A stretch of 64,000 bases of DNA, taken from positions 310,001 through 374,000 of the forward strand of contig NZ_RAQM01000008.1 of the NCBI RefSeq assembly GCF_003610735.1, read 5' to 3'. Below the pieces are notes generated by a model that saw nothing but the letters and a program-made list of their open reading frames with translations, was not told where the DNA came from and ran no database searches. The DNA is from Tenacibaculum lutimaris. Lineage in GTDB: Bacteria > Bacteroidota > Bacteroidia > Flavobacteriales > Flavobacteriaceae. Positions 6,851-44,644 of this stretch are shown here, in pieces; positions within the stretch are counted from its first letter, which is position 1, and the number at the start of each line of letters is the position of its first letter. Position numbers and translations under genes: made by a program.

Positions 6851-6894
6851 ATTCTACCAAACTTTTATCCCGAAAGTTTTAATTAAATTATAAT

Positions 6895-7040
6895 AATTGG
6901 CAGGTCTCCTGGCTTGCGTCTTGTAACATACCTTCCCATTAAAAAACAGTGGTTTGAGTAATTGTTACAAGCTTAATAGCTTACAGTTGCGGGAACAGCT
7001 TCGGTTTTGCACCGAATTCCCTTTTAATTCTCTTTAATAG
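6895..7040 (-). promoter_or_regulatory. Cobalamin riboswitch (AdoCbl class)
   Basis: Read on the minus strand, the RNA has the conserved core in order: GGTGCAAAACC, AGCTGTTCCCGCAACTGTA, CCACTG, GGGAAGG, and the B12 box AAGCCAGGAGACCTGCC (plus-strand 6899-6915). It ends about 45 bases before the btuB-like start, so ligand binding probably controls translation or early termination of the uptake operon. It lies between the BtuF-like gene and btuB. Repression by adenosylcobalamin is the established behaviour of the class. Confidence 0.95.
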
Positions 7041-7084
7041 ATGATTAAAGAAAAACCAAAAATCACGGCAAATGTATAGTATTC

Positions 7085-31411: not shown

Positions 31412-32209
31412 ATGAAACAGATTAGCAGTACACAAAACGCCTATATAAAAGAGCTTTTAAAGCTTCAAGAAAAAGCTAGAGAACGTAAGAAGAAAGGACT
31501 TTTTTTAGTAGAAGGGCAACGCGAAATTTCGTTAGTGCTCAAAGGTGGATATGAAATTGACATTGTACTCTTTGTAGCTGAACTTTTCTCAGAAGAAAAA
31601 CTGACCGAAATAAAAAATCAAGCTGCTAATTGCATCGAAATTACGAAAGAAGTATATCAAAAACTTGCCTATCGCGATACTACCGAGGGTATTATTGCAG
31701 TGGTAAAAACTAAAAATTTCGATTTAGAAGGTATTGAATTCAACTCCACTACTCCACTAGTTTTGGTTATGGAAGGTATTGAAAAGCCAGGAAACATTGG
31801 TGCTATGTTACGTACTGCTGATGCTGCGAATGTAGATGCTGTTTTTATTGCCAACCCTAAAACGGATTTATTCAACCCTAATATTATACGTTCTAGTGTA
31901 GGTTGTGTATTTACCAATCAGATAGCTACAGGTACTTCTGAAGACATTATAGCATTCTTACAAGAACACAACATTCATATTTACAGTGCTACCCTACAAA
32001 ACTCAAACGAGTACCATAAAAACGACTATACTAAGGCTACTGCTTTGGTAGTAGGTACCGAAGCTACAGGGCTAACGCAAGTTTGGCGAGACCAAGCTAC
32101 TCAGAATATCAATATTCCTATGCAAGGAGAAATAGATTCTATGAATGTATCGGTTGCTGCAGCTATCTTAACTTTTGAGGCGAAACGACAACGTAATTTT
32201 ATACAGTAA
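31412..32209 (+). CDS. TrmH/SpoU family RNA 2'-O-methyltransferase
   Basis: 265 residues. The N-terminal substrate-binding domain (KARERKKKGLFLVEGQREI) is followed by the SPOUT knot motifs: MEGIEKPGNIGAMLRTADA (motif 1), VVGTEATGL (motif 2) and IPMQGEIDSMNVSVAAAILTFE (motif 3). The target base in rRNA or tRNA cannot be predicted. It is the last ordinary gene before the accessory array; its transcript ends at the terminator at 32242-32268. Confidence 0.93.
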   Translation: MKQISSTQNAYIKELLKLQEKARERKKKGLFLVEGQREISLVLKGGYEIDIVLFVAELFSEEKLTEIKNQAANCIEITKEVYQKLAYRDTTEGIIAVVKTKNFDLEGIEFNSTTPLVLVMEGIEKPGNIGAMLRTADAANVDAVFIANPKTDLFNPNIIRSSVGCVFTNQIATGTSEDIIAFLQEHNIHIYSATLQNSNEYHKNDYTKATALVVGTEATGLTQVWRDQATQNINIPMQGEIDSMNVSVAAAILTFEAKRQRNFIQ

Positions 32210-32238
32210 ACTTACTTATCAATACTGAAAAACATTAT

Positions 32239-32389
32239 TTTAACCGTACATTTTTGTGCGGTTTTTTATTTTGTTTTATCTTGGCTAACGCTAATAAAAA
32301 AGAACTAAAAATTGCTAAAAACTCCCGTTTATCACCTTGAATACTCCGGATAAAAGTAGTTTTTGTTCTCTTATAACGAGTTGTAAGCC
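32239..32389 (+). repeat. Repeat family A, copy 1: attC-like palindromic site
   Basis: About 145 bases that recur at 42105 with roughly four differences by my alignment. It opens with a terminator (AACCGTACA/TGTGCGGTT, 32242-32263, then T run) and continues with GGCTAACGC. It folds through arms such as AGAAC (32301-32305) against GTTCT (32365-32369) and CGTTTATC against GATAAA. It ends CGAGTTG. The last bases with the cassette start (GTTGTAAGCC, 32380-32389) are the exact reverse complement of GGCTTACAAC on the other side of the next gene. Confidence 0.75.
32242..32268 (+). terminator. Intrinsic terminator after the TrmH-like gene
   Basis: AACCGTACA pairs with TGTGCGGTT (one G-U pair) around TTTT and runs into TTTTATTTTG. 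It is part of repeat A, so it also appears at 42108-42131. Confidence 0.85.
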
Positions 32390-32405
32390 ATTTGAACAAA
32401 AAAAT

Positions 32406-33032
32406 ATGAAAAAAATAATTACATTAACATTTCTGTTTTTTTTAGCTATTAACAGCTATTCACAATCGGACAAAGAATTGGTTTTAAAATCATTTGAGAA
32501 TTATAAAAGTGCAATCCTCACCGATAAAGGAAAATTAGCTGTTGATTTTGTTGATAGTCGGACTATGAATTACTATTCCACTATTTTGGATAAAGTTAAA
32601 ACGGCTGATTCATTAGAAGTAGACTCAATGGGAATAATTGACAAACTCACCGTATTGACTATGCGACATAGAGTAGACAAAAAGGATTTACTGAATTTTA
32701 ATGGTAAAGATTTATTTGTTTACGCAATTGACAATGGAATGGTTGGAAAAAATAGTGTTGTAAATGCTGAATTGGGAGATGTCGTTACAAATGGTGATTT
32801 TTCAAAAGCAGAATTTGTTGTTAATGGACAAAGAACACCTTTTTTCTTTCACTTTTATCGTGAGGACAAAGTATGGCGAATTGATATAACTCATTTATTT
32901 TCACTTGGAACAATGGGTTTTAAAAAAATGATTGAGAATAGCGGAGAAAATGAAAACGATTTTATAACAAACATTCTGGAGGTTTTAACAGGAAAGAAAC
33001 CGACAGAAAATATTTGGAAACCGATAATATAA
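32406..33032 (+). CDS. Secreted protein of unknown function, possibly NTF2-like
   Basis: 208 residues from the ATG at 32406, which starts a signal peptide (KIITLTFLFFLAINSYSQ). The frame is open from 32337, but those codons lie in repeat A and do not encode a sensible N-terminus. The mature part begins SDKELVLKSFENYKSAI, and a later GQRTPFFFHFYREDKVWRIDITHLF resembles the end of an NTF2/SnoaL-like fold. I do not recognise a specific family. It lies between an A site and a B site, the first gene of the putative cassette array. Confidence 0.7.
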   Translation: MKKIITLTFLFFLAINSYSQSDKELVLKSFENYKSAILTDKGKLAVDFVDSRTMNYYSTILDKVKTADSLEVDSMGIIDKLTVLTMRHRVDKKDLLNFNGKDLFVYAIDNGMVGKNSVVNAELGDVVTNGDFSKAEFVVNGQRTPFFFHFYREDKVWRIDITHLFSLGTMGFKKMIENSGENENDFITNILEVLTGKKPTENIWKPII

Positions 33033-33036
33033 AAAC

Positions 33037-33173
33037 GGCTTACAACAATGGCTATAAGTAATTGCTTGTTCTCGCCTACTTCTGAAAATCCGCGAGGATT
33101 TTCAGTTTGGTGTGTACTTGCAAAGTTAATCGCTAAACCACGCAACTACTCATAGCCGAGACCGTTAGCAAAC
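33037..33173 (+). repeat. Repeat family B, copy 1: attC-like palindromic site
   Basis: Outer arms GGCTATAAGTAATTGC (33050-33065) and GCAACTACTCATAGCC (33142-33157) pair with two mismatches. An inner perfect hairpin GAAAATCC-GCGA-GGATTTTC is at 33084-33103. The element begins with GGCTTACAAC (complement of the preceding cassette start) and ends in GTTAGCAAAC (33164-33173), which is complementary to GTTTGCTAAC beyond the next gene. A nearly identical copy is at 43181 (about six differences over 117 bases). Confidence 0.8.
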
Positions 33174-33188
33174 ATAAAAGACAAGATC

Positions 33189-34091
33189 ATGAATCAAACA
33201 TTTTTTTTGACAATACTCATATTTACTTCACAAGTAATACAAGCTCAAAACAATGAAACTTTGAGCGAAAAACTTTGGAAACAAGTACAAGATTGTTATT
33301 CAATGTTTGAGGACTTGGATGAAGATGGAAAAGTCGATTATGATGAAATTATTGATGATTCTAAAAATGGATATTTAAAAGTTTCTGGAAGTTGGCCAAC
33401 TTGTGGTTGTAATTGTGAAAATACAATTGGAGCATATAAAACAAATTCAAATGATTATATTTTCCTTAAAAAATACCAATGGGGATGTTCTTGGCAAAAG
33501 GGATTATATCTAAGTGACAGTGCATCTGTTATATTTCCATTTGATTTTGGAGCAGATGGTTTTTTTCAAACAAAGATTGAAAACTTAAGCCATAATGCAT
33601 ATTTCTATCTGGATTTTAAAATTCCAAGAAAAGGAACAGAAACAAAAGTATTCATAAAACCTATTCCTCTAGGAATTAAAGTAGAGAACGAAAAATATAT
33701 TGTATTTGGATATGCCGAAAAAAACAAATTCACATATAGTCATAAAATGTTTCAGATATGGAGAATTGCTTCTAAAACAAAGGGGAGCAACTGTATAGAA
33801 AATTTGCTAAACAATAACTTAAATGAAATTTCAGAAGCAGATAAGAAAATTATTGATGAAGCAATTGGAACAGGTGATAGTAAATTTGAAAATATAAAAG
33901 AATTGATTATTTGTTTTCAAGAATTAAAACATATTTATGAAGTTTATACTCAAATTCATTATGATTGGCTGATTTTAGGTTGGAATCGAGATAAGGGAGC
34001 ATTTTATATTAAAGAAAAAGGGAAAAGAATGAAAATTGATTCATTTAAAGATTTTCTTAAAAATACTGAAATGTGGAGACCTATTTGTTAA
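33189..34091 (+). CDS. Secreted protein with one EF-hand-like loop, function unknown
   Basis: 300 residues with signal peptide (FLTILIFTSQVIQAQ). Residues 42-53, DLDEDGKVDYDE, fit a canonical EF-hand loop (acidic at 1, 3, 5, Gly at 6, Glu at 12). A Cys cluster (WPTCGCNCENTIG and QWGCSW) follows. The rest has no motif I recognise. It is flanked by GTTAGCAAAC (33164) and its exact reverse complement GTTTGCTAAC (34099), as expected of a single mobile cassette. Confidence 0.7.
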   Translation: MNQTFFLTILIFTSQVIQAQNNETLSEKLWKQVQDCYSMFEDLDEDGKVDYDEIIDDSKNGYLKVSGSWPTCGCNCENTIGAYKTNSNDYIFLKKYQWGCSWQKGLYLSDSASVIFPFDFGADGFFQTKIENLSHNAYFYLDFKIPRKGTETKVFIKPIPLGIKVENEKYIVFGYAEKNKFTYSHKMFQIWRIASKTKGSNCIENLLNNNLNEISEADKKIIDEAIGTGDSKFENIKELIICFQELKHIYEVYTQIHYDWLILGWNRDKGAFYIKEKGKRMKIDSFKDFLKNTEMWRPIC

Positions 34092-34098
34092 TAATTAC

Positions 34099-34139
34099 GT
34101 TTGCTAACTTAAACTGTATATACTCAACGTTGGGATGCA
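34099..34139 (+). repeat. Short attC-like junction between two accessory genes
   Basis: GTTTGCTAAC (34099-34108) is the exact reverse complement of the sequence at the other end of the preceding gene. GTTGGGATGCA (34129-34139) begins the next one. Only 20 bases lie between, so either this site has lost its palindromic body or it is a minimal type. TGCACCACAAC at 34738 complements the second core at 9 of 11 positions. Confidence 0.6.
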
Positions 34140-34145
34140 TTTAAA

Positions 34146-34655
34146 ATGATGATTAAGAAATACACATCGACACTTTTGAATGGAATATACATTCTGACGA
34201 TTATACTTTTTGTCTTTGATTGGTTGACTTCATTTGAAATCAAAAATCAGGCAATAAAGTCGTTTTCATATTTTGGTGTTATGGTATTGACTCCTCTAAC
34301 TTTGGTTTGGAATCTATGGGCTTTTAAATCAAAAAAATGGAAACTAATCGGCTCGACAATTCCGACATTGACCTTAATTGGAATTTTAATAATTGGCCCT
34401 TTAAAAATTGTATTTTCTACGTCAGCTTGGAAAACTCAAAAGGTAATTTATCAAAACGGACATTTAAACTTTAAGAAAGTTGAATTTCAAACGCAAGATA
34501 TCGGTGCCTTAGGGTACAATAAGAGAACTGTAGAAGTAATTTATTTGACTGACCTGTTTATGTTAGTTAATCCAGTAGAAAAGGACATTGACGATAGAGT
34601 TGAATGGATAAAAGTCGACAAAGAAGTAAATGAACTCAGATTGAAATTTCCTTAA
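34146..34655 (+). CDS. Membrane protein of unknown function
   Basis: 169 residues with three hydrophobic segments (about 10-27, 38-58, 66-88). They are followed by a soluble C-terminal domain (TQKVIYQNGHLNFKKVEFQTQDIGALGYNKRTVEVIYLTDLFMLVNPVEKDI). No family recognised. It follows the short junction at 34099-34139 and is followed by a 234-base gap. Confidence 0.65.
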   Translation: MMIKKYTSTLLNGIYILTIILFVFDWLTSFEIKNQAIKSFSYFGVMVLTPLTLVWNLWAFKSKKWKLIGSTIPTLTLIGILIIGPLKIVFSTSAWKTQKVIYQNGHLNFKKVEFQTQDIGALGYNKRTVEVIYLTDLFMLVNPVEKDIDDRVEWIKVDKEVNELRLKFP

Positions 34656-34703
34656 AATTAATTGAATATCAAGAAGCCTTCATGTAACACGGAAATACTT
34701 AAA

Positions 34704-34870
34704 AGGATTTTCAAAAAAAGAAAAAAAAGAAAAAAAATGCACCACAACAATGCCTCCTATGAAAAGTACTAGTCCAGTTTTTCAAAGTTACTATTTCATT
34801 TTTTTAATTATCTCATAATTAATAATTCAATTTCTAAACTATATTTTATTTAGTTAATCCGTTATATCAC
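34704..34870 (+). repeat. Degenerate B-like site in the gap before the next gene
   Basis: An A-rich tract (34711-34737) leads into TGCACCACAACAATGCC (34738-34754), which aligns with the family B opening TTACAACAATGGC. About 112 bases later comes CCGTTATATCAC (34859-34870), resembling the B ending ACCGTTAGC. The interior no longer folds clearly. The spacing matches family B (117 bases between the same landmarks), so I read it as an eroded copy. Confidence 0.35.
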
Positions 34871-34889
34871 AGTGTAAATCTGTAACTAT

Positions 34890-35387
34890 ATGAATTCAAA
34901 ACAAGAAATAGTTAGTTTAATTCATGATGAATTTGGTAAAGAAGAATTTTTAGTATCAAAGGCTAACTATAATTTAATCGAAGTAGAACCTAACTTATGG
35001 GAGTTTACTATTTATTTTGAGACTATGAAATCATTGACTAGAGTTCCTGAACTAGAAGAAGCTATATTAGATCCTAAACCGCATTTTGAAGCTACTGCAC
35101 TTTTAGATAACTCTTCTTTAAACCTTTGCAAAGGAAAAATAATTGAACAAACTGAGTCTTGGGATGAAAACCGAGAAGAAAATCTTTCTAACGTTTATTA
35201 CTTTGAACATACAAGTCTAGAAAAATTAAGGGTTGAGATATTAGAATCTGATACAAAATTTATTAAAGTACTAATTTCAGGCAGAACCTTAATTAATGGG
35301 TCAAACCATAACAACCCAGACACAACAATTAAAACAACACCAATCACTTTTAAAAAAGACATAACTTTAGAAAGAAGTGTTATGTAA
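34890..35387 (+). CDS. Cytosolic protein of unknown function
   Basis: 165 residues without signal peptide or membrane segment. It opens MNSKQEIVSLIHDEFGKEEFLV and contains alternating beta strands (NLWEFTIYFETMKSL, FEATALLDNSSLNLCKGKI, KFIKVLISGRTLING). No motif known to me. The preceding spacer is the degenerate site at 34738-34870. Confidence 0.65.
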   Translation: MNSKQEIVSLIHDEFGKEEFLVSKANYNLIEVEPNLWEFTIYFETMKSLTRVPELEEAILDPKPHFEATALLDNSSLNLCKGKIIEQTESWDENREENLSNVYYFEHTSLEKLRVEILESDTKFIKVLISGRTLINGSNHNNPDTTIKTTPITFKKDITLERSVM

Positions 35388-35457
35388 ATATATTACAACC
35401 AATACTTCACCAAACCATAATAATAAAGCGAAAAAGAATATTTAAAATCCATTTAAT

Positions 35458-36219
35458 ATGAATAAAGAAGAAGAAAAAAAAGTTTTTTATGCTCAGCAAA
35501 ATGAATTAATGAAGCAAGCATCAAAAGATGCTCAGAAGAATTTCAAATATTTTTGGAGAGAATTATATTGGGAATATCGAAGAATAATTCCAGCACATGA
35601 TTTTGCTTTGGTTAAAATTCCTTTTGAACAAACATTTGAGGGACTAAATGAACCTGTTATTGAGCATATGTGGATTAACAACATAAACTTTGATGGTGAA
35701 ATTATTACTGGTGAATTGGTAAACTCCCCTAATCGATTAACTAATATCAAAAATGGTGACTTTGTAACACGAAAAATAAAAGAAATTAGCGATTGGATGA
35801 TATCTATTCAAGGTAAAACCTATGGTGGGTTTACAATTCAAGTTATGCGTTCAGGGATGAATGATACGGAAAGAAAAAATCATGATAATGCTTGGGGGTT
35901 GGATTTTGGCGATTACAATAAGCCTTTATTAGTTTTTGAGCAAATAGAAAATCCAGAAAATTTAATTGAACATCCAATGAGTGTAAATATGGGTGATAAA
36001 GTACGAGAGTTTTTGAATGATAACCCTAAAGAGCTAACAAAAGCAGATGAAAATGGTCTTAATCTTTTGCATAAAGAAGCCATAGCTGGAAATAAAACTA
36101 ACATTGACGTTTTACTAGAGTTGGGTGCAGATAAAAACGTAAAATCTTCTCACGGAAAAACTGCTTTGGATTATGCTGAGTTTATGAATTGGGAACATAT
36201 TAAAGATGTTCTGAATTAA
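35458..36219 (+). CDS. DUF2314 protein with C-terminal ankyrin repeats
   Basis: 253 residues. Residues about 20-150 match DUF2314 (KIPFEQTFEGLNEPVIEHMWINNINFDGEIITGEL and SDWMISIQGKTYGGFTIQVM in separate segments). Residues about 185-253 form two ankyrin-type units (ADENGLNLLHKEAIAGNKTNIDVLLELGADKNV, then GKTALDYAEFMN). DUF2314 proteins occur near polymorphic-toxin immunity genes and as stand-alone cargo, so an immunity or interaction role is possible but not shown. It is followed by a B-family site. Confidence 0.8.
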   Translation: MNKEEEKKVFYAQQNELMKQASKDAQKNFKYFWRELYWEYRRIIPAHDFALVKIPFEQTFEGLNEPVIEHMWINNINFDGEIITGELVNSPNRLTNIKNGDFVTRKIKEISDWMISIQGKTYGGFTIQVMRSGMNDTERKNHDNAWGLDFGDYNKPLLVFEQIENPENLIEHPMSVNMGDKVREFLNDNPKELTKADENGLNLLHKEAIAGNKTNIDVLLELGADKNVKSSHGKTALDYAEFMNWEHIKDVLN

Positions 36220-36224
36220 AAATA

Positions 36225-36353
36225 TCACAAACATTGACTATAAACAATTACAGCCCTTATCTACAGTTGAAAGTCCACAAGGATTTTCAGTTTGGTATAT
36301 TTTGTATCCACTAAGTCAAACAACTAATCATAACCAAGAAGACCTTTACCAGT
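36225..36353 (+). repeat. Repeat family B, copy 3 (diverged)
   Basis: Aligned by eye to copies at 33037 and 43181: ACATTGACTATAAACAATTA (left arm), AAGTCCACAAGGATTTTCAGTTTGGTATA (core hairpin region, given here only as a landmark around 36271-36298), and ACTAATCATAACC (right arm). The end GACCTTTACCAG replaces GACCGTTAGC, so the GTT core is mutated. The next gene's ATG lies immediately after, at 36354. Confidence 0.7.
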
Positions 36354-36914
36354 ATGTGCCGATACGGAATTAATGCTTATAAACCACATTACGCTTGTTT
36401 CGAATGTAGAAAAACATTCAAAAGAAGATTATTAACAGATATTGATAGAGATTCGAGAGAATTTGAAAAACAGTCTTATAAATGCCCTGAATGTAATGGA
36501 GCAACAGTAGACATGGGGCTTGATTTCGAGTCTCCTAAGAAGTCTGACTTAAAAGCATGGAACCATATGAAAAACCTTTATGAAACAGGAATTACATTTC
36601 ATTCTTGTGGGTGTACTGGTCCTGGCTACATTCCAAAAGATAAAAACAAACTGATTGATTTTTTAAAAGAGAAAAAAGAGGTTTATATTAAAAATCTACG
36701 TTTTTGGACTACAAGAGTAGAACCGAAAAATGAAAACGAAAAAAATAAAGATTGGAATAAAAACAATTATTTTCTATTCAATCTACCAAAAGAATTTACA
36801 ACTGGAACCAAAAAGAAAAAGAAAACAGATTTAAAAAAAGCAGTGGAATATTGGACTGAAAGAGTTAACGATATAGAAACCAAAATAATAAAAATAACGG
36901 AAAGCAATGTATAA
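36354..36914 (+). CDS. Zinc-ribbon protein of unknown function
   Basis: 186 residues. Four cysteines Cys15, Cys18, Cys44 and Cys47 (YACFECRK and YKCPECNG) form a likely zinc ribbon. A Cys/His group follows (FHSCGCTGPGYIP). The C-terminal half is Lys-rich and helical (KKKKKTDLKKAVEYWTERVNDIETKI). Similar short proteins beginning MCRYG are familiar in Flavobacteriia, but no function is assigned. Its start codon abuts the end of a B-family site. Confidence 0.75.
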   Translation: MCRYGINAYKPHYACFECRKTFKRRLLTDIDRDSREFEKQSYKCPECNGATVDMGLDFESPKKSDLKAWNHMKNLYETGITFHSCGCTGPGYIPKDKNKLIDFLKEKKEVYIKNLRFWTTRVEPKNENEKNKDWNKNNYFLFNLPKEFTTGTKKKKKTDLKKAVEYWTERVNDIETKIIKITESNV

Positions 36915-36993
36915 TTAGAATTCTGTACGTTCGAATCCAACCAAAATTGCTGACATCTTTTTTTAACCGAAAACAAAGTAAACAAATCAATAA

Positions 36994-37010
36994 TAACCAA
37001 CGGTTGGTTA
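36994..37010 (+). repeat. Core-site palindrome before the discoidin-like gene
   Basis: TAACCAAC and GTTGGTTA are exact reverse complements separated by one G. In the cassette model this is a left and a right core brought together without a palindromic body. The rest of the 127-base gap shows nothing else. Confidence 0.5.
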
Positions 37011-37041
37011 TATACCCCTTTTAATACACTCACAAAACGAT

Positions 37042-37698
37042 ATGAAAATTATAATAACAATATTCTTTTTAACATTTAATACTATTCTATTTTCACAAGA
37101 ATTAAAAAAAATTCAAGCTGTTCAAGAAAAAGACTCTGATTTTTTCGGCTATGATGATTATGATACCTCAGGTAAACCAATTGGCGAATTATTATTTTTA
37201 AAAGGTTGCAGTTGGTATTGTGGTGGTTCTGTAAAATCAATTAAAGCTTCATCAGAATTAAAAGAAAATAAAGGAATTAATTACTCTCCTAAAAATGCCC
37301 ACGATTTTGATAAAAACACAGCTTGGGTAGAAGGCAAATCTGATTATGGAATTGGTGAATTTATTGAATATACTTTTGACTTTAGTGAAATAAAAGAATA
37401 TAATGGAAGCTTAGGAATTAATCGAATTTTATTAGCAAACGGATATAAAAAAAATAAACTGACTTGGCAAAATAATTCTAGAGTTAAACAACTAAAAGTT
37501 TACTTAAACGATAAACCCTACGCAATTTTAAACCTTTTAGATACATTTGAAATTCAAACAATTAATATCGGCGAAATAAAATTCCCTACAAATAAAGTAA
37601 CCAAGCTAAAGTTTGAGATAACTCAAGTTTATAAAGGAATTAAGTTTAAAGACACAGCCATAAGCTTGCTAATGTTTGAAGGAGTTGGAGTACATTAA
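37042..37698 (+). CDS. Secreted discoidin-like (NADase-type glycan-binding) protein
   Basis: 218 residues, signal peptide IITIFFLTFNTILFSQ. The mature part contains SIKASSELKENKGINYSPKN-type and HDFDKNTAWVEGKSDYGIGEF-type segments, then RVKQLKVYLNDKPYAILNL. This is the jelly-roll layout of F5/8-type or NADase-type glycan-binding domains. No catalytic domain is attached. Probably a cell-surface or secreted binding protein; the ligand is unknown. Confidence 0.7.
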   Translation: MKIIITIFFLTFNTILFSQELKKIQAVQEKDSDFFGYDDYDTSGKPIGELLFLKGCSWYCGGSVKSIKASSELKENKGINYSPKNAHDFDKNTAWVEGKSDYGIGEFIEYTFDFSEIKEYNGSLGINRILLANGYKKNKLTWQNNSRVKQLKVYLNDKPYAILNLLDTFEIQTINIGEIKFPTNKVTKLKFEITQVYKGIKFKDTAISLLMFEGVGVH

Positions 37699-37787
37699 AA
37701 GAAGAAACACTACAATAGAATTTCCTATAAAAAATAGTAATCCCTTTCTTTAAAATTAGACACAAAGACACTTAAATTCAAAAAAAA

Positions 37788-39005
37788 ATGAAACTTGAAA
37801 ATAAAAATGATCTTTTAAGAATTATCTTAATAATCAACATTACCATAATATTATCCATCAAAGCCCTCTCATTTATTAATGCAGCAAATTATTTACCTGG
37901 AATGCTAATACTTTTAGCTAATATATCTTTCATTATAGGAATAACAAGTGGGATAAAGAAACAGCTGTTTTTAAAATTTTGCTTCATATCTAGTTTTTTC
38001 TATTTTACAGTGTTACTACTATACCATTTTATTGACGATGGTTTTTTATTTCTTGAAACAATATTAATTATTATTTATTCTATTTTTTATCTTATTATTA
38101 AAAATAAACTGAATAAAAAATATAACGAGACAGAAGCTAAATCAAAAGATAAAACAAGTGATTTATATATATTATCAGTATGCGTTAGTACTTTGTTTAC
38201 GATTTACACGATATACACACAAATTAATAATTATCTTAACAAAAAAGCTATACACGAACAATATGAAAAAGATAGAATTAAAAACGATCTAAGGTGGATT
38301 GAAGAAATGAATTACCACATTGACAATCTATCTAAAAACCATTATATAACTGGCTCCAAACTTTCTCATGAAAATAATAGTGTTTTTAAGAACTTCATGA
38401 AAGTTATTGAAGTAACAGATTCCGAAATTATTCTTCTAAAATTTAAATCTAGAGCATATACTCCTGTAGCTAGATTAATGGAAGAAACATACATGAAATA
38501 TGACAAAAAAGATACTGTAAGAATAACAAAACAAAAACTCAAAAAAACAATTGCCCCTGAAATACGAGATGACGTATACAAACATCAAAATGGTTTAAAA
38601 AAAGAAGGTATATATTATACTGTTAAAGACATTAAGTATATCGACGGTCCTTACTTATCTATAAAAGATGAACATGAAGTTCAATTAGTTGAAGGAGACA
38701 CTACTTTTTTCAAATTTAAGAATCGTAATAAAAAAGCTTATTTAACCAAAATTGAAAATATTTCAGGAAACTATAAATGGCATAATAAATTACCTATGCC
38801 TATTAATGGGTACAGCCTTAACTCAAGAGATTATAATAAAAGCGCAGAATTCAGTTTAAAAGCAACCAATATAGATTATAGACAAGACTTTAGATTCAAA
38901 TTATACTTAGAGGATTCTTTAAAAAATAAACATGTTTTTTTAGTAGTAAAAAGTTCTGAAGATAATAACTTCATTACCTTTGATTGTAAAAGGGTTTTCG
39001 AATAA
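37788..39005 (+). CDS. Multi-pass membrane protein with soluble C-terminal domain, unknown
   Basis: 405 residues. Four to five hydrophobic helices in the first 145 residues (about 10-30, 37-55, 62-80, 86-104, 127-143) precede a charged linker (KKAIHEQYEKDRIKNDLRW) and a soluble domain of about 240 residues with LKFKSRAYTPVARLMEETYMKYDK and FKFKNRNKKAYLTKI. No motif recognised. The flanking gaps (89 and 93 bases) are short and carry no repeat I can identify. Confidence 0.65.
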   Translation: MKLENKNDLLRIILIINITIILSIKALSFINAANYLPGMLILLANISFIIGITSGIKKQLFLKFCFISSFFYFTVLLLYHFIDDGFLFLETILIIIYSIFYLIIKNKLNKKYNETEAKSKDKTSDLYILSVCVSTLFTIYTIYTQINNYLNKKAIHEQYEKDRIKNDLRWIEEMNYHIDNLSKNHYITGSKLSHENNSVFKNFMKVIEVTDSEIILLKFKSRAYTPVARLMEETYMKYDKKDTVRITKQKLKKTIAPEIRDDVYKHQNGLKKEGIYYTVKDIKYIDGPYLSIKDEHEVQLVEGDTTFFKFKNRNKKAYLTKIENISGNYKWHNKLPMPINGYSLNSRDYNKSAEFSLKATNIDYRQDFRFKLYLEDSLKNKHVFLVVKSSEDNNFITFDCKRVFE

Positions 39006-39098
39006 TTTAAAAAAAACTAATACTTATAAACTATACTTACTCGGTTCAAAAGAAATTCCTTTTTAATTGATGAAGAAAAAAATAAAAAAATTAGAAAT

Positions 39099-40205
39099 AT
39101 GAATAGATTAAAAATCTTATTAATTGGGTGTTTAACAATAACATCTCAAATTGTAGCACAAAATTTAGTAATGCAAAACGATATTGTTGAACAACAATTT
39201 GGTAAACAAATATTGTATAAAGACAGTAACAATAACTTGTTAAATGGATACTATAAAATTGCTGATAATCGTGGTAATTTTATTGATGCACATTTTAAAA
39301 ACGGTACTAAAGAAGGAATCCAAACCAACTATGATTACAAAGAACGAAAATTGAGTGAAAAATCTTTTAAAAACGGAAAAACTCATGGAAAATATAAACG
39401 TTTTCATCAAAACGGTCAGGTTAATGTTCAAGGCGAATTTGTAAATGGAAATCAAGAAGGAAAATGGGAGTATTTTAATGATAAAGGAGAAATAGAAGTA
39501 CGTGAATTCTATAAATCAGGAAAAGCTGAAGGAAAGTGGTGGAAAAAAGTAAGAACAAATTCTAATATTGCTTCCTTCATTACTGAAAACTATAAAAATG
39601 GAGAACATTATGGTCGTTCTGAGCAGAAAGATGCAGATGGAAAAATAGAATGGGAACGTAAATATACAAATGACGGTAGTTATTGGCATAAAAGTTACTA
39701 TTCAAACGGAAAACCAGAAATTGAAAAAAATCTCAAAGATTATAAATTAGACGGAGTACAGAAAACATGGAATCAAAATGGTATTTTATTAAGCATGAAA
39801 ACATTTAGTAAAGACCAAATTCAACAAGAAATATATTACTACAAAAACGGTCATAAGGATCAAGTCCATAATTATTCTTATGGCAAAAAGGAAGATCTTT
39901 TTGAAAGATATACTGAAAAAGGTATAAAACTAGAAGTAGGTTATTACAAACATGGTTTTAAAACAGGAGTTTGGAAAAATTTTGATAGTGAAACTGGTCG
40001 TTTGATAACTGAAAGAACTTACGAAAACAATGTTCTTAATGGAATTTATAAAAGTTACAATGAAGCAAACAAAGTAAGTACAGAAGGAAGTTATAAAAAC
40101 GGTGAACAAGATGGAATTTGGAAACACTATAATTTAGCAGGAAAACTTATACAAGAAACGGAATACCAAATAGGTAAAGAAATTTCAGAAAAAAAATATA
40201 AATAA
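39099..40205 (+). CDS. Secreted MORN-variant repeat protein
   Basis: 368 residues with a signal peptide ending near IVAQ. At least eight MORN_2-type units with pattern YxxNGKxxGxW or similar are visible (KNGTKEGIQTNY, KNGKTHGKYKRFHQNGQ, VNGNQEGKWEYF, KSGKAEGKWWKK, ENNVLNGIYKSY, KNGEQDGIWKHY). Databases often label such proteins as YwqK-family antitoxins, but nothing here supports a toxin partner. A perfect-stem hairpin follows the stop codon. Confidence 0.85.
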   Translation: MNRLKILLIGCLTITSQIVAQNLVMQNDIVEQQFGKQILYKDSNNNLLNGYYKIADNRGNFIDAHFKNGTKEGIQTNYDYKERKLSEKSFKNGKTHGKYKRFHQNGQVNVQGEFVNGNQEGKWEYFNDKGEIEVREFYKSGKAEGKWWKKVRTNSNIASFITENYKNGEHYGRSEQKDADGKIEWERKYTNDGSYWHKSYYSNGKPEIEKNLKDYKLDGVQKTWNQNGILLSMKTFSKDQIQQEIYYYKNGHKDQVHNYSYGKKEDLFERYTEKGIKLEVGYYKHGFKTGVWKNFDSETGRLITERTYENNVLNGIYKSYNEANKVSTEGSYKNGEQDGIWKHYNLAGKLIQETEYQIGKEISEKKYK

Positions 40206-40226
40206 GTACCAAAAAAAGCTATATAA

Positions 40227-40268
40227 TCAGAATGGAAACACCTATTAAAAATGATGTTTCCATTCTGA
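40227..40268 (+). terminator. Terminator after the MORN-repeat gene
   Basis: TCAGAATGGAAACA and TGTTTCCATTCTGA form a perfect 14-bp stem with a 14-base loop, followed by ATTTTAATCC. The T run is modest. Confidence 0.65.
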
Positions 40269-40382
40269 ATTTTAATCCGTTAAATATTTTTTTCTAAAAA
40301 CTAATTACTCGGTTTTAGATAAAGTCCTTTATTCAGACACTCTATCAAAAAGATTATACTCCTTGGAAATAAAACAATTGTT

Positions 40383-42008
40383 ATGTTTAAAATTAAATCA
40401 GTAATCATACTATGTTTACTTTACTCTTGCTCTACTAAAGCTCAGGAAACGATTACCAAAGAACCTGTTACAGAACTAATGGTTATAGAACAAGAAAAGT
40501 TATGTGAAGACAAAAGCATAATCGAAAAAAAAGAAAAAGAAATAAAATCTTTTTTAGATACTATAAGTATTAATCATTTAAAGAAACAAGTTAATGAGAA
40601 TTTAAATTACTACATAAACAATGAAAGTAGTATCATTGAATCACTTAACAATCATCAAAAAGATATAAATGAAAGAATTAATAGTAATATAAAATTATAC
40701 TTACCTAACGAAAAAAAATACACTAATAAGGAAAATATACTTTTAAAATTAGTTAACAACAACCATTTAGAATATAGAGATACTATACAAAAAGGTACTT
40801 ATTTTAATCAGCTTTTTGAACACAATAAATCTTACATTAAACCTCTAGTGATGAATAGTGGTTTCTCTACTTATAATTTTAAGAGTAAAGTAACTACCCT
40901 ACCCTACTATTCTTTAAACTCTCATTCTGAACAGAACTTGAGAATTATGAATGTTTATTACCATGATGGTACTAAAAAAAACAACCCAACCCCTATCAAA
41001 TCTCATTCATTCCCTTTGAATTCTATTCCTGTAAAAAAAATGAAACATGTTGATAGTTTACAGCTAGAATTCAAAATTAATTACTTAACCAAAATTGATT
41101 CTATTCATTTTAAAAAAAATGAAATAGGAATACAAAAAGGAGACTTTAAACTACTTAAAATGGAGAAAAATTATGTAGAGTATGAAACTCCAGATGCATA
41201 TTCTCCTTATCTTGAAGCATACTATTACAATAAAGAAGGAAAAGCCTTAAAAACTAAATTCAGCATTAGTAATCTATCTACTGAAACACCTATACAAGAA
41301 TATAATAAAACACTGAATTATATAAAAAGTACTGTTGAATATATAAATAGAATAACTACTAAAGAGGAAGCTTTTCTTACATTAAAATACCTAGATTTAA
41401 AAAACCATAATAATCCACATAAAAAAACTAAGAGTAGAGTAACTTTAGAAGGAAATGTTGATTCTTTTACTTTATATATAGAAAGTAAAAGAGATACAAT
41501 TACCTTTTTAACCACACTTAAAAACGGATCATCAGTAAAAAAACTTTACCTACATAAATTAGAGGACAAGACAGAGTTTATTGACAAAGACGGAAAAGTA
41601 ATTACTTCAATTCCTTCTTCTGTTCACTTTTTATCACATCATACAGGCTATCATTCCGATAAATATTTTTTCACAGAAAGTACAGAAGAAAGAGACTATT
41701 ATTATCTAGATCAAGATAAACAAACTATTTCTAAACTTCCCTATTCACAAATAGAGTACTTATGCTTGCCTATATTACTTGCTAAAGAAAAAGGAAAAGA
41801 AGGGCTTAAATTATTATCAGCAGAAAAAAACCTATTACTATCTGACAAAACATTTACCAATGTTTTTATTCAGCGTTATACTGGCGAAGGTATTCTCGTC
41901 TATAACAACGGAGGAAGCTTCCTACTTTATGATCAAAACAACAAATTAATTACCGAAAACACAAAAAAAGTAGATAAAATAATTCTAAAAAAATCAACAG
42001 GGTGGTAA
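40383..42008 (+). CDS. Lipoprotein of unknown function
   Basis: 541 residues. The N-terminus VIILCLLYSCSTKAQ gives a possible lipobox with Cys16, though cleavage after KAQ by signal peptidase I is also conceivable. A charged helical part (about 20-110) is followed by a mainly beta region with repeated short KLxxxxYVEYETPDAYSPYLE-like stretches. From about 380 there is a KLYLHKLEDKTEFIDKDGKVITSI region resembling WG-like or propeller repeats. No assigned family. Confidence 0.65.
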   Translation: MFKIKSVIILCLLYSCSTKAQETITKEPVTELMVIEQEKLCEDKSIIEKKEKEIKSFLDTISINHLKKQVNENLNYYINNESSIIESLNNHQKDINERINSNIKLYLPNEKKYTNKENILLKLVNNNHLEYRDTIQKGTYFNQLFEHNKSYIKPLVMNSGFSTYNFKSKVTTLPYYSLNSHSEQNLRIMNVYYHDGTKKNNPTPIKSHSFPLNSIPVKKMKHVDSLQLEFKINYLTKIDSIHFKKNEIGIQKGDFKLLKMEKNYVEYETPDAYSPYLEAYYYNKEGKALKTKFSISNLSTETPIQEYNKTLNYIKSTVEYINRITTKEEAFLTLKYLDLKNHNNPHKKTKSRVTLEGNVDSFTLYIESKRDTITFLTTLKNGSSVKKLYLHKLEDKTEFIDKDGKVITSIPSSVHFLSHHTGYHSDKYFFTESTEERDYYYLDQDKQTISKLPYSQIEYLCLPILLAKEKGKEGLKLLSAEKNLLLSDKTFTNVFIQRYTGEGILVYNNGGSFLLYDQNNKLITENTKKVDKIILKKSTGW

Positions 42009-42104
42009 TACGTACATAATTTACGTATAAAAAATTGAAAGTTTTCGTATTACTTATATAGTATAGATTCAAAAACTTGCTTTACAAAGCTCAAAAACAT
42101 CTAA

Positions 42105-42252
42105 TTTAACCGTACATTTTTGTGCGGTTTTTTATTTTGTTTTATCTTGGCTAACGCTAATAAAAAAAGAACAAAAATTGCTAAAAACTTCCGTTTATCA
42201 CCTTTAATACTCCGGATAAAAGTAGTTTTTGTTCTCTTATAACGAGTTGGCG
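42105..42252 (+). repeat. Repeat family A, copy 2: attC-like site
   Basis: Near-identical to 32239-32383. In this copy AGAACAAAAA pairs exactly with TTTTTGTTCT. It ends CGAGTTGGCG, and TTGGCG (42247-42252) is complementary to CGCCAA (43184-43189) after the next gene; over ten bases eight match. The 96 bases between the preceding stop and this site hold nothing recognisable. Confidence 0.75.
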
Positions 42253-42270
42253 TTAATTAAAACGAGCTAA

Positions 42271-43179
42271 ATGACATTAACCATTTTTCTTCACCATAAT
42301 AAAATATTTGACTTTACACCAAATTGGTTTGACTGGTTGACTCTATTGCTTACCATTGCAAGTATTGTAGGTGCTTATTTAGTTTCGGAATCGGTTTACA
42401 AAAGAGAACAAAAAGATAAAAAAAGAGAAAATAAAGAACTTGAAAATTCGGAAAATGAATTATTGAAAAACAATCTGGAAGAAATTAAAAAACCAATTTT
42501 AAAACAAATCGAAAGTTTAAATGAATATATGGAAAAACAGGATTTTAGACTTTCATTTTATTCAGAAATACAAGTAGACTTTCTTCAATTCATTAGTGTT
42601 AAAGACATTTACAAAAAGTACGATTTTCAGAATAAAGAAAATATAAAAGTTATTAATAGACTTTTTACAAGCCTTTATACTCTTTATGATTTCAGAGGCT
42701 CATTAAGAAGTGAGGTTCGAACATATATTGAAAAGTACAATTATCACGAACAACTGTTTTATAAATACAGGAGTTTACTATATACGAAATACTTTGAGCT
42801 ATGCAATTCAAGAGCAGAAAGCATAATAAACGAGAATGGGATTAAAAAATTCAGTTTTAATGACAACGACAAATTTATGGCTGAATTCACTCAATTGCGT
42901 GGAGAAACTTTTGCAGACAATGAGATAATTGACAACAATGGATTAAAAGACAGAAAATTACTCATAGATAGATTTATTGTGCCTTTAATAAATATTGCTT
43001 CTAAATACATTCCTGAAGACTATAATACAATCGAAATTAGTGAGATTTCTAATCAAGTATTATCTGCATTTAATGATATGGAACACGTTACAGAAAAACA
43101 TATGAATGCAATTCAAGGTCATATAGATTCATTGGAGAGCGTTAATGAAAAAATTAACGAGTTTGAAAAAATTAAATAA
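42271..43179 (+). CDS. Single-helix membrane protein with coiled-coil domain, unknown
   Basis: 302 residues. One helix (WLTLLLTIASIVGAYLVSESVY, about 23-44) is followed by a highly charged coiled coil (KREQKDKKRENKELENSENELLKNN) and a helical cytosolic domain to the end. Topology of this kind is seen in some phage-defence membrane proteins, but no defence motif is present and I do not assign a function. It occupies the same A-gene-B position as the unrelated gene at 32406. Confidence 0.65.
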   Translation: MTLTIFLHHNKIFDFTPNWFDWLTLLLTIASIVGAYLVSESVYKREQKDKKRENKELENSENELLKNNLEEIKKPILKQIESLNEYMEKQDFRLSFYSEIQVDFLQFISVKDIYKKYDFQNKENIKVINRLFTSLYTLYDFRGSLRSEVRTYIEKYNYHEQLFYKYRSLLYTKYFELCNSRAESIINENGIKKFSFNDNDKFMAEFTQLRGETFADNEIIDNNGLKDRKLLIDRFIVPLINIASKYIPEDYNTIEISEISNQVLSAFNDMEHVTEKHMNAIQGHIDSLESVNEKINEFEKIK

Positions 43180-43180
43180 C

Positions 43181-43313
43181 TACCGCCAAAAATGGCTATA
43201 AATAATTGCTTGTTCTCGCCTACTTCTGAAAATCCGCGAGGATTTTCAGTTTGGTGTATACTTGCAAAGTTAAGTGCTAAACCACGCAACTACTCATAGC
43301 TGGAGACATTACA
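43181..43313 (+). repeat. Repeat family B, copy 2: attC-like site
   Basis: Same arms and inner GAAAATCC-GCGA-GGATTTTC hairpin as the copy at 33037. Differences cluster at the two ends (CCGCCAAAAATGG at the start, GGAGACATTAC at the end), which is where cassette-specific cores lie. The GTT of the right core is changed to ATT. Confidence 0.8.
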
Positions 43314-43337
43314 TATCAAAACCAATAATACATCTTA

Positions 43338-43456
43338 TTTAACCGTACCAATTGTACGTTTTTTTATTTTATATTATTTTAGCTTACGCTAAATAAGAAA
43401 AAATAAAGAATTGCTACTATTTCCTTTTATCCTCACTTTAAACAAGGAACACCGAT
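43338..43456 (+). repeat. Repeat family A, copy 3 (diverged)
   Basis: TTTAACCGTACCAATTGTACGTTTTTTT keeps the terminator form (CGTAC/GTACG then Ts, 43343-43365). AGCTTACGCTAAATAAG and GAATTGCTACTATTTCC align with the body of copies 1 and 2. The right end is lost. It directly follows a B site, giving a B-A tandem in the 295-base gap. Confidence 0.55.
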
Positions 43457-43474
43457 TAAAATATAAATTGCTTA

Positions 43475-44644
43475 ATGAACTTAATTACACAATATCCCTA
43501 TATATCAATCATCATAATTATATTTATTTTGAATTCTATAATTAAAAAAATTACACGAGCTAAACACTCCCCTATAGCAAAATTATCCTTGTTTATAATG
43601 GCAATTATTGCCCAAGCTTGTAGTCCTTTTGCGGGTCCTGTTGACAAATCTGTTTCAGATTCTTATTACTACTCAAAATCAAAAAAAGACATTCGTTATT
43701 CACCTATGGGGAATTGGTTTTCATTAGGAAACACTAAATTAAATGCTGATGTTAAAAGCTTTAAAGTTTTAGGAAGAGACTTTGGAAAAGATAAAAATCA
43801 TGTATACTTTAAAAGTAATATTATAGATAATGAGGTAGATACCGCTACTTTTTATGTACATGAAGATGATTACACCTGTTTTGACAAAAACCATGTATAC
43901 ATTGCTATAAACTATATGCCACAAGATATTAACCTAATAAATCAAGAGAAAAAACATTTGTGGAAGGTAGCAAAAGCTAATCCTAAAACATTTCAAAAAA
44001 TTGATCAAGATTGGGCTAAAGATGATAAACATTATTTTTACAATTACACTCCTATAAATGTAGATTATGATTTCTTTAAAGTTTTAAACAAAAACTTTGC
44101 TAAGGATCAAAATCAGGTATATTTATTAAAAAACTACGAATTGTTAGTTGCCACAACAATAGATCCTACCACAAGCAAAAAAATTAATGATAGATATATA
44201 GCAGATAAAAATAGTATTTACGACTTTCAAGAATATAAAAATGGTAAAAAAGTAGATTCTCTAACATCAATTCCTTATCAAAACATTGATGATTTAACCA
44301 TTTTAGAAGATAAATTCTTACTTTTTGATAATACTGTTATATACGATGGTGTTAAAATTAAAAATGTTGATTTCTCTACTTTTAAAATCATTCAATTTCC
44401 GTATTCTAAAGATAAAAATCATGTATTCTATCACAGTGATGTTATTGAAAAAGCTGACCCTAATACCTTTAGCATTTTTGAAACTTCTTATTATTCAAAA
44501 GATAAAAACCATGTATACGTTTACGGAAAACTATTAAAAGAAGCTGATGTAGCTACTTTTGGTCCTTCAAACGAAAAGCATTCTTTGTTATATAAAGATA
44601 AAAACCATACCTACCGAGGTGACAAAATTGTAGAAGATAACTAA
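43475..44644 (+). CDS. DKNYYY-repeat protein, probable lipoprotein
   Basis: 389 residues. Two hydrophobic segments lie at about 9-24 and 36-48; the second ends in a lipobox-like IAQAC. At least seven DKNYYY-family units follow (DKNHVYFKSN, DKNHVYIAI, DDKHYFYNY, DQNQVYLLK, DKNSIYDF, DKNHVFYHS, DKNHVYVYG). The repeats are spaced about 35-60 residues apart. Function of the family is unknown; related proteins are common in mobile and accessory regions. Confidence 0.85.
   Translation: MNLITQYPYISIIIIIFILNSIIKKITRAKHSPIAKLSLFIMAIIAQACSPFAGPVDKSVSDSYYYSKSKKDIRYSPMGNWFSLGNTKLNADVKSFKVLGRDFGKDKNHVYFKSNIIDNEVDTATFYVHEDDYTCFDKNHVYIAINYMPQDINLINQEKKHLWKVAKANPKTFQKIDQDWAKDDKHYFYNYTPINVDYDFFKVLNKNFAKDQNQVYLLKNYELLVATTIDPTTSKKINDRYIADKNSIYDFQEYKNGKKVDSLTSIPYQNIDDLTILEDKFLLFDNTVIYDGVKIKNVDFSTFKIIQFPYSKDKNHVFYHSDVIEKADPNTFSIFETSYYSKDKNHVYVYGKLLKEADVATFGPSNEKHSLLYKDKNHTYRGDKIVEDN

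Follow-up and report, generated by a model that had tools for sequence, protein, structure and literature searches.

What kind of locus places about a dozen genes, separated by recurring long palindromes, beside a conserved TrmH-type gene of Tenacibaculum lutimaris? The question arises in a stretch of 64,000 nucleotides (nt) of contig NZ_RAQM01000008.1 (assembly GCF_003610735.1, positions 310,001 to 374,000), hereafter the window. A preliminary description of these letters had proposed an integron-like cassette array, possibly specific to Bacteroidota, with two families of attC-like palindromes (A and B) and no integrase gene. Analysis of the window and of related genomes suggests, with a probability of about 90%, that the window holds a degenerate integron-type gene-capture locus of the Flavobacteriaceae, from which the recombinase has been lost and in which orphan attI sites and cassettes remain. 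More broadly, the results point to a marine flavobacterial gene-capture system whose layout and predicted folding are those of an integron, with a recombinase that lacks the integron-defining domain. The proposed Bacteroidota-specific system is strongly supported by sequence, through cassette arrays, complementarity between the two ends of one cassette, GTT borders and a recombinase with attI at its stop codon, as well as covarying stems, bottom-strand folding, and duplicated and cross-species cassettes.

Both elements are genuine repeats, as had been described. Over 148 nt, A1 and A2 have 95-97% identity; A3 (43338-43416) shares only the left ~80 nt with them at 79% identity, and the three B copies were scored against a profile built from the sites of relatives (Table 1). 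The sequences just inside the sites had been said to be complementary across a given gene. In the unit between A1 and B1, GTTGTAAGCC after A1 is the exact reverse complement of CGGCTTACAAC at 33036; in the unit from B1 to 34108, GTTAGCAAAC after B1 is the exact reverse complement of CGTTTGCTAAC at 34098. Each 11-mer has a single occurrence in the window on either strand. The second unit ends in a short attC at 34105-34131, which by eye is probably truncated. End complementarity is imperfect (by eye) for the unit between A2 and B3, and an exact partner sought in the window was found neither for the unit starting at 34129 nor for the unit after B2. Most genes from ~34.7 to 42.1 kb are without recognised cassette ends. 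Of the dozen or so genes, no more than three can be demonstrated to be cassettes.

A search of related genomes located B in 33 of the 59 genomes searched; within the genus, with the window's own genome counted (G000; genomes and loci carry G and L numbers here), it is present in 31 of 36. G000 has 17 dispersed matches. In the stretches examined of six genomes, B forms arrays in which all detected sites lie on one strand (62 sites in G016, 37 in G013, 22 in G024, 12 in G005, 9 in G021 and 8 in G034), and sites occur on both strands in G008 (49) and G028 (15). The cassettes of G008, with sites on both strands, exist in many near-identical copies (L073-L075). Out of 288 profile matches, 282 were kept, and 185 cassettes were formed where both ends were found. 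Positions 3-9 of the cassette start match the reverse complement of the cassette's own end at 0.93, 0.90, 0.89, 0.90, 0.90, 0.91 and 0.71, compared with 0.53, 0.38, 0.31, 0.34, 0.33, 0.35 and 0.39 for the ends of other cassettes. At the next position, a conserved A.C mismatch (A at the start, C at the end) is present in 150 of the 180 cassettes taken for border and folding analysis. Element B is thus recognised as a cassette site of ~125 nt that resembles attC. A cassette opens with GTTRNNNNNN, in most cases carries a gene, and closes with the reverse complement of its first 10 nt and a foldable attC.

Full-length duplicate cassettes also bear on the borders. Among 54 duplicate pairs with at least 90% identity, a different cassette follows in 51. 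At the right border, identity ranges over 0.65-1.0 within the final 20 nt, holds at 1.0 through GTT and falls to 0.2-0.6 beyond it, except at a conserved A and the neighbouring T; at the left border, examined in 29 pairs, identity is mixed upstream and 1.0 inward from GTT. With at least 75% identity there are 55 pairs, including 36 in G013, 15 in G008, and three cross-species pairs at 86-92%. The cassette borders coincide with these GTT ends, and site copies unrelated to the borders of gene units are not the pattern observed. This matters for the possibility that A and B are hairpin repeats of the repetitive extragenic palindrome (REP) or miniature inverted-repeat transposable element (MITE) type, spread by a transposase and lying between genes by chance. 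Both elements are indeed dispersed in the window's genome and B is palindromic, but complementarity of each cassette's own ends, GTT borders and cassette ends that can be predicted from attI (see below) are unexpected for MITEs, and we regard this explanation as extremely unlikely. In related genomes, B marks arrays with cassette-specific complementarity, unlike ordinary MITE or REP copies.

Bottom-strand folding, a feature of integron attC sites, had been suggested as a check and was predicted here for 178 cassettes using DNA parameters. In the excised form, the bottom strand is the more stable in 177 of the 178 (mean -24.5 vs -19.7 kcal/mol), as it is in 175 of the 178 in the array form; B1 as an excised circle yields -30.9 kcal/mol for the bottom strand and -25.4 for the top. 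Covariation was assessed in an alignment of 71 of the 78 listed sites, the structure being derived from the same alignment. For these 71 bottom strands, 14 outer-stem pairs are predicted and double compensatory changes are seen in 10 of them. Stem cells are paired in 93.7% of cases, slid structures reach 28-50%, and 0 of 500 shuffles attain any of five measures. The bottom-strand stem cells comprise 885 Watson-Crick pairs, 46 G.T, 7 A.C and 56 other mismatches, and this excess of G.T over A.C fits selection acting on the bottom strand. These predictions suggest that the sites would fold from the bottom strand in the manner of attC.

Element A had been taken for a second attC family. We reject this, since its end matches attI at the integrase stops of relatives and A1 follows the TrmH-type gene without an upstream cassette; element A is a putative orphan attI, so that only B retains the attC-like assignment. 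The comparison used 80 named recombinase loci, from at least 547 relatives, with titles in Flavobacteriaceae or unnamed Flavobacteriales. The motif ATAACNNGTTR occurs between -60 and +250 nt relative to the recombinase stop in 64 of the 80 loci and a relaxed form in 71, the expectation from DNA upstream of the recombinase gene being 0.0033 per such stretch. In intact copies, attI (ATATAACNAGTTR) is typically found 27-36 nt past the stop, and cassettes then follow in the same direction. From attI alone, the 11-mer end of the first cassette is predicted exactly in 31 of 71 loci (control, 49 of 4944). Where at least 1 kb of downstream DNA is available, 27 of 45 loci yield an exact end, and 36 of 45 do so when one mismatch is allowed (control, 6.4%); predictions with T, A or G replacing C give 1, 0 and 0 matches. 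Element A resembles the attI region of locus L092 over ~55 nt (by eye). Among 44 genomes, there are seven copies of A in G000, seven in G022, three in G017, and one short match in each of three others. When 17 A-type loci were tried, the attI pattern fitted six, among which three have exact pairs and a fourth has a pair with one mismatch; neither A1 nor A2 fits this pattern. A promoter at attI is not claimed: of 68 loci, 22 have TAnnTTTG at a distance of 15-16 nt upstream and 24 have it anywhere within 60 nt, counts that have no control.

The preliminary description called for a tyrosine recombinase with the integron-specific insert. The cognate enzyme does exist in relatives, in G017 at the same locus, but it carries no such insert. 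In intact copies it is a tyrosine recombinase of about 370-400 amino acids (aa). All 54 recombinase sequences match PF00589 and a SAM-like domain, and R229, K254, H318, R321, H344 and Y353, which we take to be the catalytic residues, are invariant in them. The ~90 N-terminal residues had no firm Pfam match in these 54 sequences; HARP was rejected as the N-terminal domain, having only weak matches (1 of 11 and 3 of 54 members). PHROGs matches are to general integrase families. The distance from KDR to TPHTLRHS is 98 residues in nine of nine IntI, 56-57 in 25 of 25 family rows and 61-64 in four Xer proteins. At the position of the IntI-specific insert, the recombinase is shorter by some 42 residues, and by alignment that domain is missing. 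A TIGR02249 search of the genus returned open frames of ~340-416 aa, matching the model at 2-180 and 239-315; no IntI exceeded the TIGR02249 cut-off (265 bits) in 40 genus genomes, and family member L049 scores 208 bits, below that cut-off. On the sequence tests applied, the system behaves like an integron; because the defining domain was tested for and is absent, it is nevertheless kept apart from the IntI-defined family.

These counts also bear on whether the locus could be an ordinary integron, or a cluster of attC sites lacking integrases (CALIN), with canonical IntI just missing from the assemblies and the ~390-aa recombinase an unrelated neighbour. The attC consensus is RYYYAAC / GTTRRRY, and the sites carry its YAAC / GTTR core letters; canonical IntI is moreover common in other classes of the phylum, exceeding the cut-off in 105 of 395 genomes. 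Yet only one of those genomes belongs to the class of the window and none to its order, the genus has none, and attI adjoins the stop of the ~390-aa recombinase at most of the 80 loci, which makes this explanation very improbable. Recombinase profile A1, by comparison, matches 107 of the 395 phylum genomes at E <= 1e-60, the window's genome not among them.

Relationships of the recombinase were assessed by structure and by phylogeny. Structure searches were limited to residues 93-357 of an AlphaFold model (mean predicted local distance difference test score 87.6, predicted template modelling score 0.55). The top matches are archaeal Xer/XerA 4a8e (Z 22.5) and 5hxy (Z 21.0), and IntI4 2a3v matches at Z 17.9 with a root-mean-square deviation of 6.8 over 245 residues. 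In a 41-row tree, the family (25 rows), IntI (6) and Xer (4) each form one group. IntI, the family and relatives separate from the four Xer rows at 99/97, at a point where long branches join and few Xer sequences are represented; a sister grouping of the family and IntI alone is neither rejected nor shown (approximately unbiased test, p-AU 0.099). Xer-type modules, in which dif-like sites flank genes moved by host XerC/XerD, would be compatible with the XerC- and XerD-like proteins of the genome and with XerA being among the nearest solved structures. However, dif sites are ~28 nt long, the sites here measure ~125 nt, can fold and differ between the strands, and a dedicated recombinase stands next to attI; we see hardly any likelihood in such modules. 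A second recombinase subtype of the same genus, in L239 (G371) and L189 (G017), likewise has B-type attC sites. A recombinase relative with an attI-like site is also found near a ParA gene on Chryseobacterium plasmid NZ_CP041688.1 (L229).

The history of the window locus can be approached through its anchor. The TrmH-type gene has matches in 39 of 39 relatives searched (E <= 0.001), with identities of 91% in G017 and 92% in G022. In G017, a recombinase starts <100 nt past the same TrmH gene and is followed by an attI-like site, a gene with paired ends and a B site. In G022, the left part of A has survived along with one gene unit whose ends pair exactly, and a profile search found no such recombinase in this genome. 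Beside TrmH in G018, G008, G003 and G002 are other open reading frames (ORFs), with no A, B or integrase match. The gain-and-loss comparison that had been proposed was made between species only; it shows TrmH-adjacent content that differs among the window, G017 and G022, and finds neither element nor an integrase at this place in the other four genomes. The window contains no integrase, as had been noted, and in the whole of G000 recombinase profile A3 (E <= 1e-10) found none of the relatives' kind, matching only XerD-like, XerC-like and one distant recombinase. From the recombinase at the same TrmH gene in G017 and the lack of such a match in G000, we infer that the locus lost its recombinase and decayed. 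Since no recombinase was found and orphan attI sites with cassettes remain, the locus is probably immobile. Real cassettes in a locus that remains active, with a recombinase within an assembly gap acting in trans, would suit an assembly of 14 contigs, one of which (C8, L012) opens with two sites. We consider this unlikely, as the genome is 99.98% complete, profile A3 matched only the proteins just named, and B2, A3 and the site at 34105 are decayed.

In the genus, a recombinase lies upstream of B matches, on the same strand and within ~21 kb, in 14 genomes (by hand: G001, G003, G008, G009, G010, G016, G017, G021, G024, G027, G028, G029, G030 and G034). Forty wider relatives, six of them with <1 kb downstream, gave 11 exact first-cassette pairs (1, 2 and 1 with other letters). 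The attI-like pattern fits 10 of the 40; 18 show the pair or the pattern, and some of these may be chance.

Table 1 Features of the proposed gene-capture locus in the window
Feature	Positions	Strand	Remarks
TrmH-type gene, conserved locus anchor	31412..32209	+	ORF
A1, putative orphan attI-like site	32236..32383	+	core TATAACGAGTTG, GTT at 32380; same ATAACNNGTTR motif as at integrase stops of relatives
Cassette 1	32380..33163	+	starts with GTT; ORF at 32406-33032; CGGCTTACAAC at 33036-33046 as end arm, attC B1 following; exact 11-mer pair
B1, attC-like site of cassette 1	33043..33166	+	105.7 bits (profile of relatives' sites)
Cassette 2	33164..34128	+	GTT start at 33164, ORF 33189-34091, end arm CGTTTGCTAAC at 34098-34108; exact 11-mer pair
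Possible third cassette	34129..34655	+	start GTTGGGATGC at 34129, ORF 34146-34655, no matching end located
B2, decayed attC-like site	36229..36344	+	24.2 bits, E 1.4e-6
A2, putative orphan attI-like site	42102..42249	+	GTT at 42246; 97% identity to A1
Cassette between A2 and B3	42246..43307	+	ORF 42271-43179, imperfect end arm at ~43177-43190
B3, attC-like site	43187..43310	+	right core decayed; 96.4 bits
A3, attI remnant upstream of gene at 43475	43338..43477	+	left ~80 nt match A, remainder decayed

The longest ORF runs in the cassette direction in 125 of the 180 cassettes. Pfam content was scanned in 90 of 144 unique cassette ORFs, with reverse ORFs and genome G008 excluded. These 90 proteins contain 70 Pfam families at E <= 0.001, of which 66 occur in a single protein each; among the matches listed is one reverse transcriptase of the defence-associated type. 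The ORFs of the three window cassettes had no Pfam match at E <= 0.01. Two genes that lie in the interval from A1 to A2 and have no recognised cassette ends encode toxin/immunity-like proteins: a DUF2314-ankyrin protein (35458-36219) and a protein with an NAD-glycohydrolase-translocation-type domain (37042-37698). The gene at 43475-44644 encodes a DKNYY-family protein (PF13644) and has internal DNA repeats. Elsewhere in the window, a cobalamin riboswitch (6882-7075, minus strand, 114.9 bits) is the sole Rfam match at gathering scores.

Several observations weigh against a gene-capture locus of this type. In the window, the gene-specific complementarity that had been described is exact in two of the five units tried, imperfect in one and partnerless in two. 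The relaxed attI pattern is absent at 9 of the 80 recombinase loci, and among the 45 loci with enough downstream DNA, 18 give no exact first-cassette end and nine give none even when one mismatch is allowed. The G017 recombinase falls in a side group outside the main clade. In ~12 genomes of the genus, the recombinase lies on another contig than the listed B sites or far from them (78 kb in G013). Two genomes supply most of the duplicate cassettes. Finally, ORFs read in reverse in 23 of 148 cassettes, and 32 of the 180 have no ORF of 50 aa.

Sedentary chromosomal integrons share with the flavobacterial system their cassette arrays, attI beside the integrase, the GTTR core, bottom-strand folding, and complementary attC ends that come from both ends of one cassette. 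The flavobacterial recombinase differs in having no IntI-specific insert and in its N-terminal extension; the complementary arm is longer and has a fixed A.C mismatch. The recombinase gene also runs in the direction of the cassettes and has attI at its 3' end, whereas the integrase of class 1 integrons points in the opposite direction to the cassettes; co-directional integrases are known from Treponema denticola. Like a CALIN, the window locus has cassette sites and no integrase, but its sites are of the flavobacterial type and orphan attI sites are kept, and CALINs are defined by an attC model, the window sites by their own profile. XerA (NF040815) and Xer proteins resemble the recombinase in having core-binding and catalytic domains and no insert; the recombinase differs from XerA in its extra N-terminal domain, its place at cassette arrays and a score below the NF040815 cut-off (203 vs 220 bits for L049). 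IntI4 of Vibrio cholerae matches in fold, but in sequence only in two stretches around the insert.

In classical integrons, a folded attC is joined to attI and replication resolves the product. By analogy, the attC of a circular cassette would fold as a bottom-strand hairpin, the recombinase would join this hairpin to attI at GTT or next to it, and the joined product would be resolved by replication. The choice of strand may stem from A.C mismatches on the top strand, which are G.T on the bottom. The chances seem evenly balanced that this is a second integron lineage in Bacteroidota, of independent or pre-insert origin, in which a folded single-stranded site would be recombined without the IntI-specific domain and the strand set by the A.C / G.T asymmetry.

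Passages in PMC8138268, PMC9668308 and PMC2426708 describe the IntI-specific domain as essential or defining, and a past survey kept only integrases having it; the passage in PMC8138268 adds that the insertion, essential for integron function, is not fully conserved in an integron-like subgroup. The presence of intI in the Bacteroidetes/Chlorobi group has been reported (PMC2426708), and Bacteroidota are listed among integron-bearing phyla (PMC8618304). The relevant part of a 2022 survey gives Bacteroidetes proper only In0 elements and one complete integron, and calls the lack in some clades "intriguing" (PMC9024848). The 11 taxa given in a section of PMC8352920 as sources of attC models include no Bacteroidetes, and a statement in PMC10013915 has IntegronFinder detecting no integrons in Tenacibaculum larymnensis. 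No description of such a system was found among the papers listed by full-text searches, a scope outside which lie preprints and most subscription papers, so that one may exist. The findings suggest a cassette system in Bacteroidota that insert-based filters could pass over, and one that would offer a natural test of the purpose of the extra domain of IntI. As regards the origin of integrons, the recombinase family is a candidate branch. The cassettes, with Pfam families that mostly occur once, would constitute an unexplored pool of genes.

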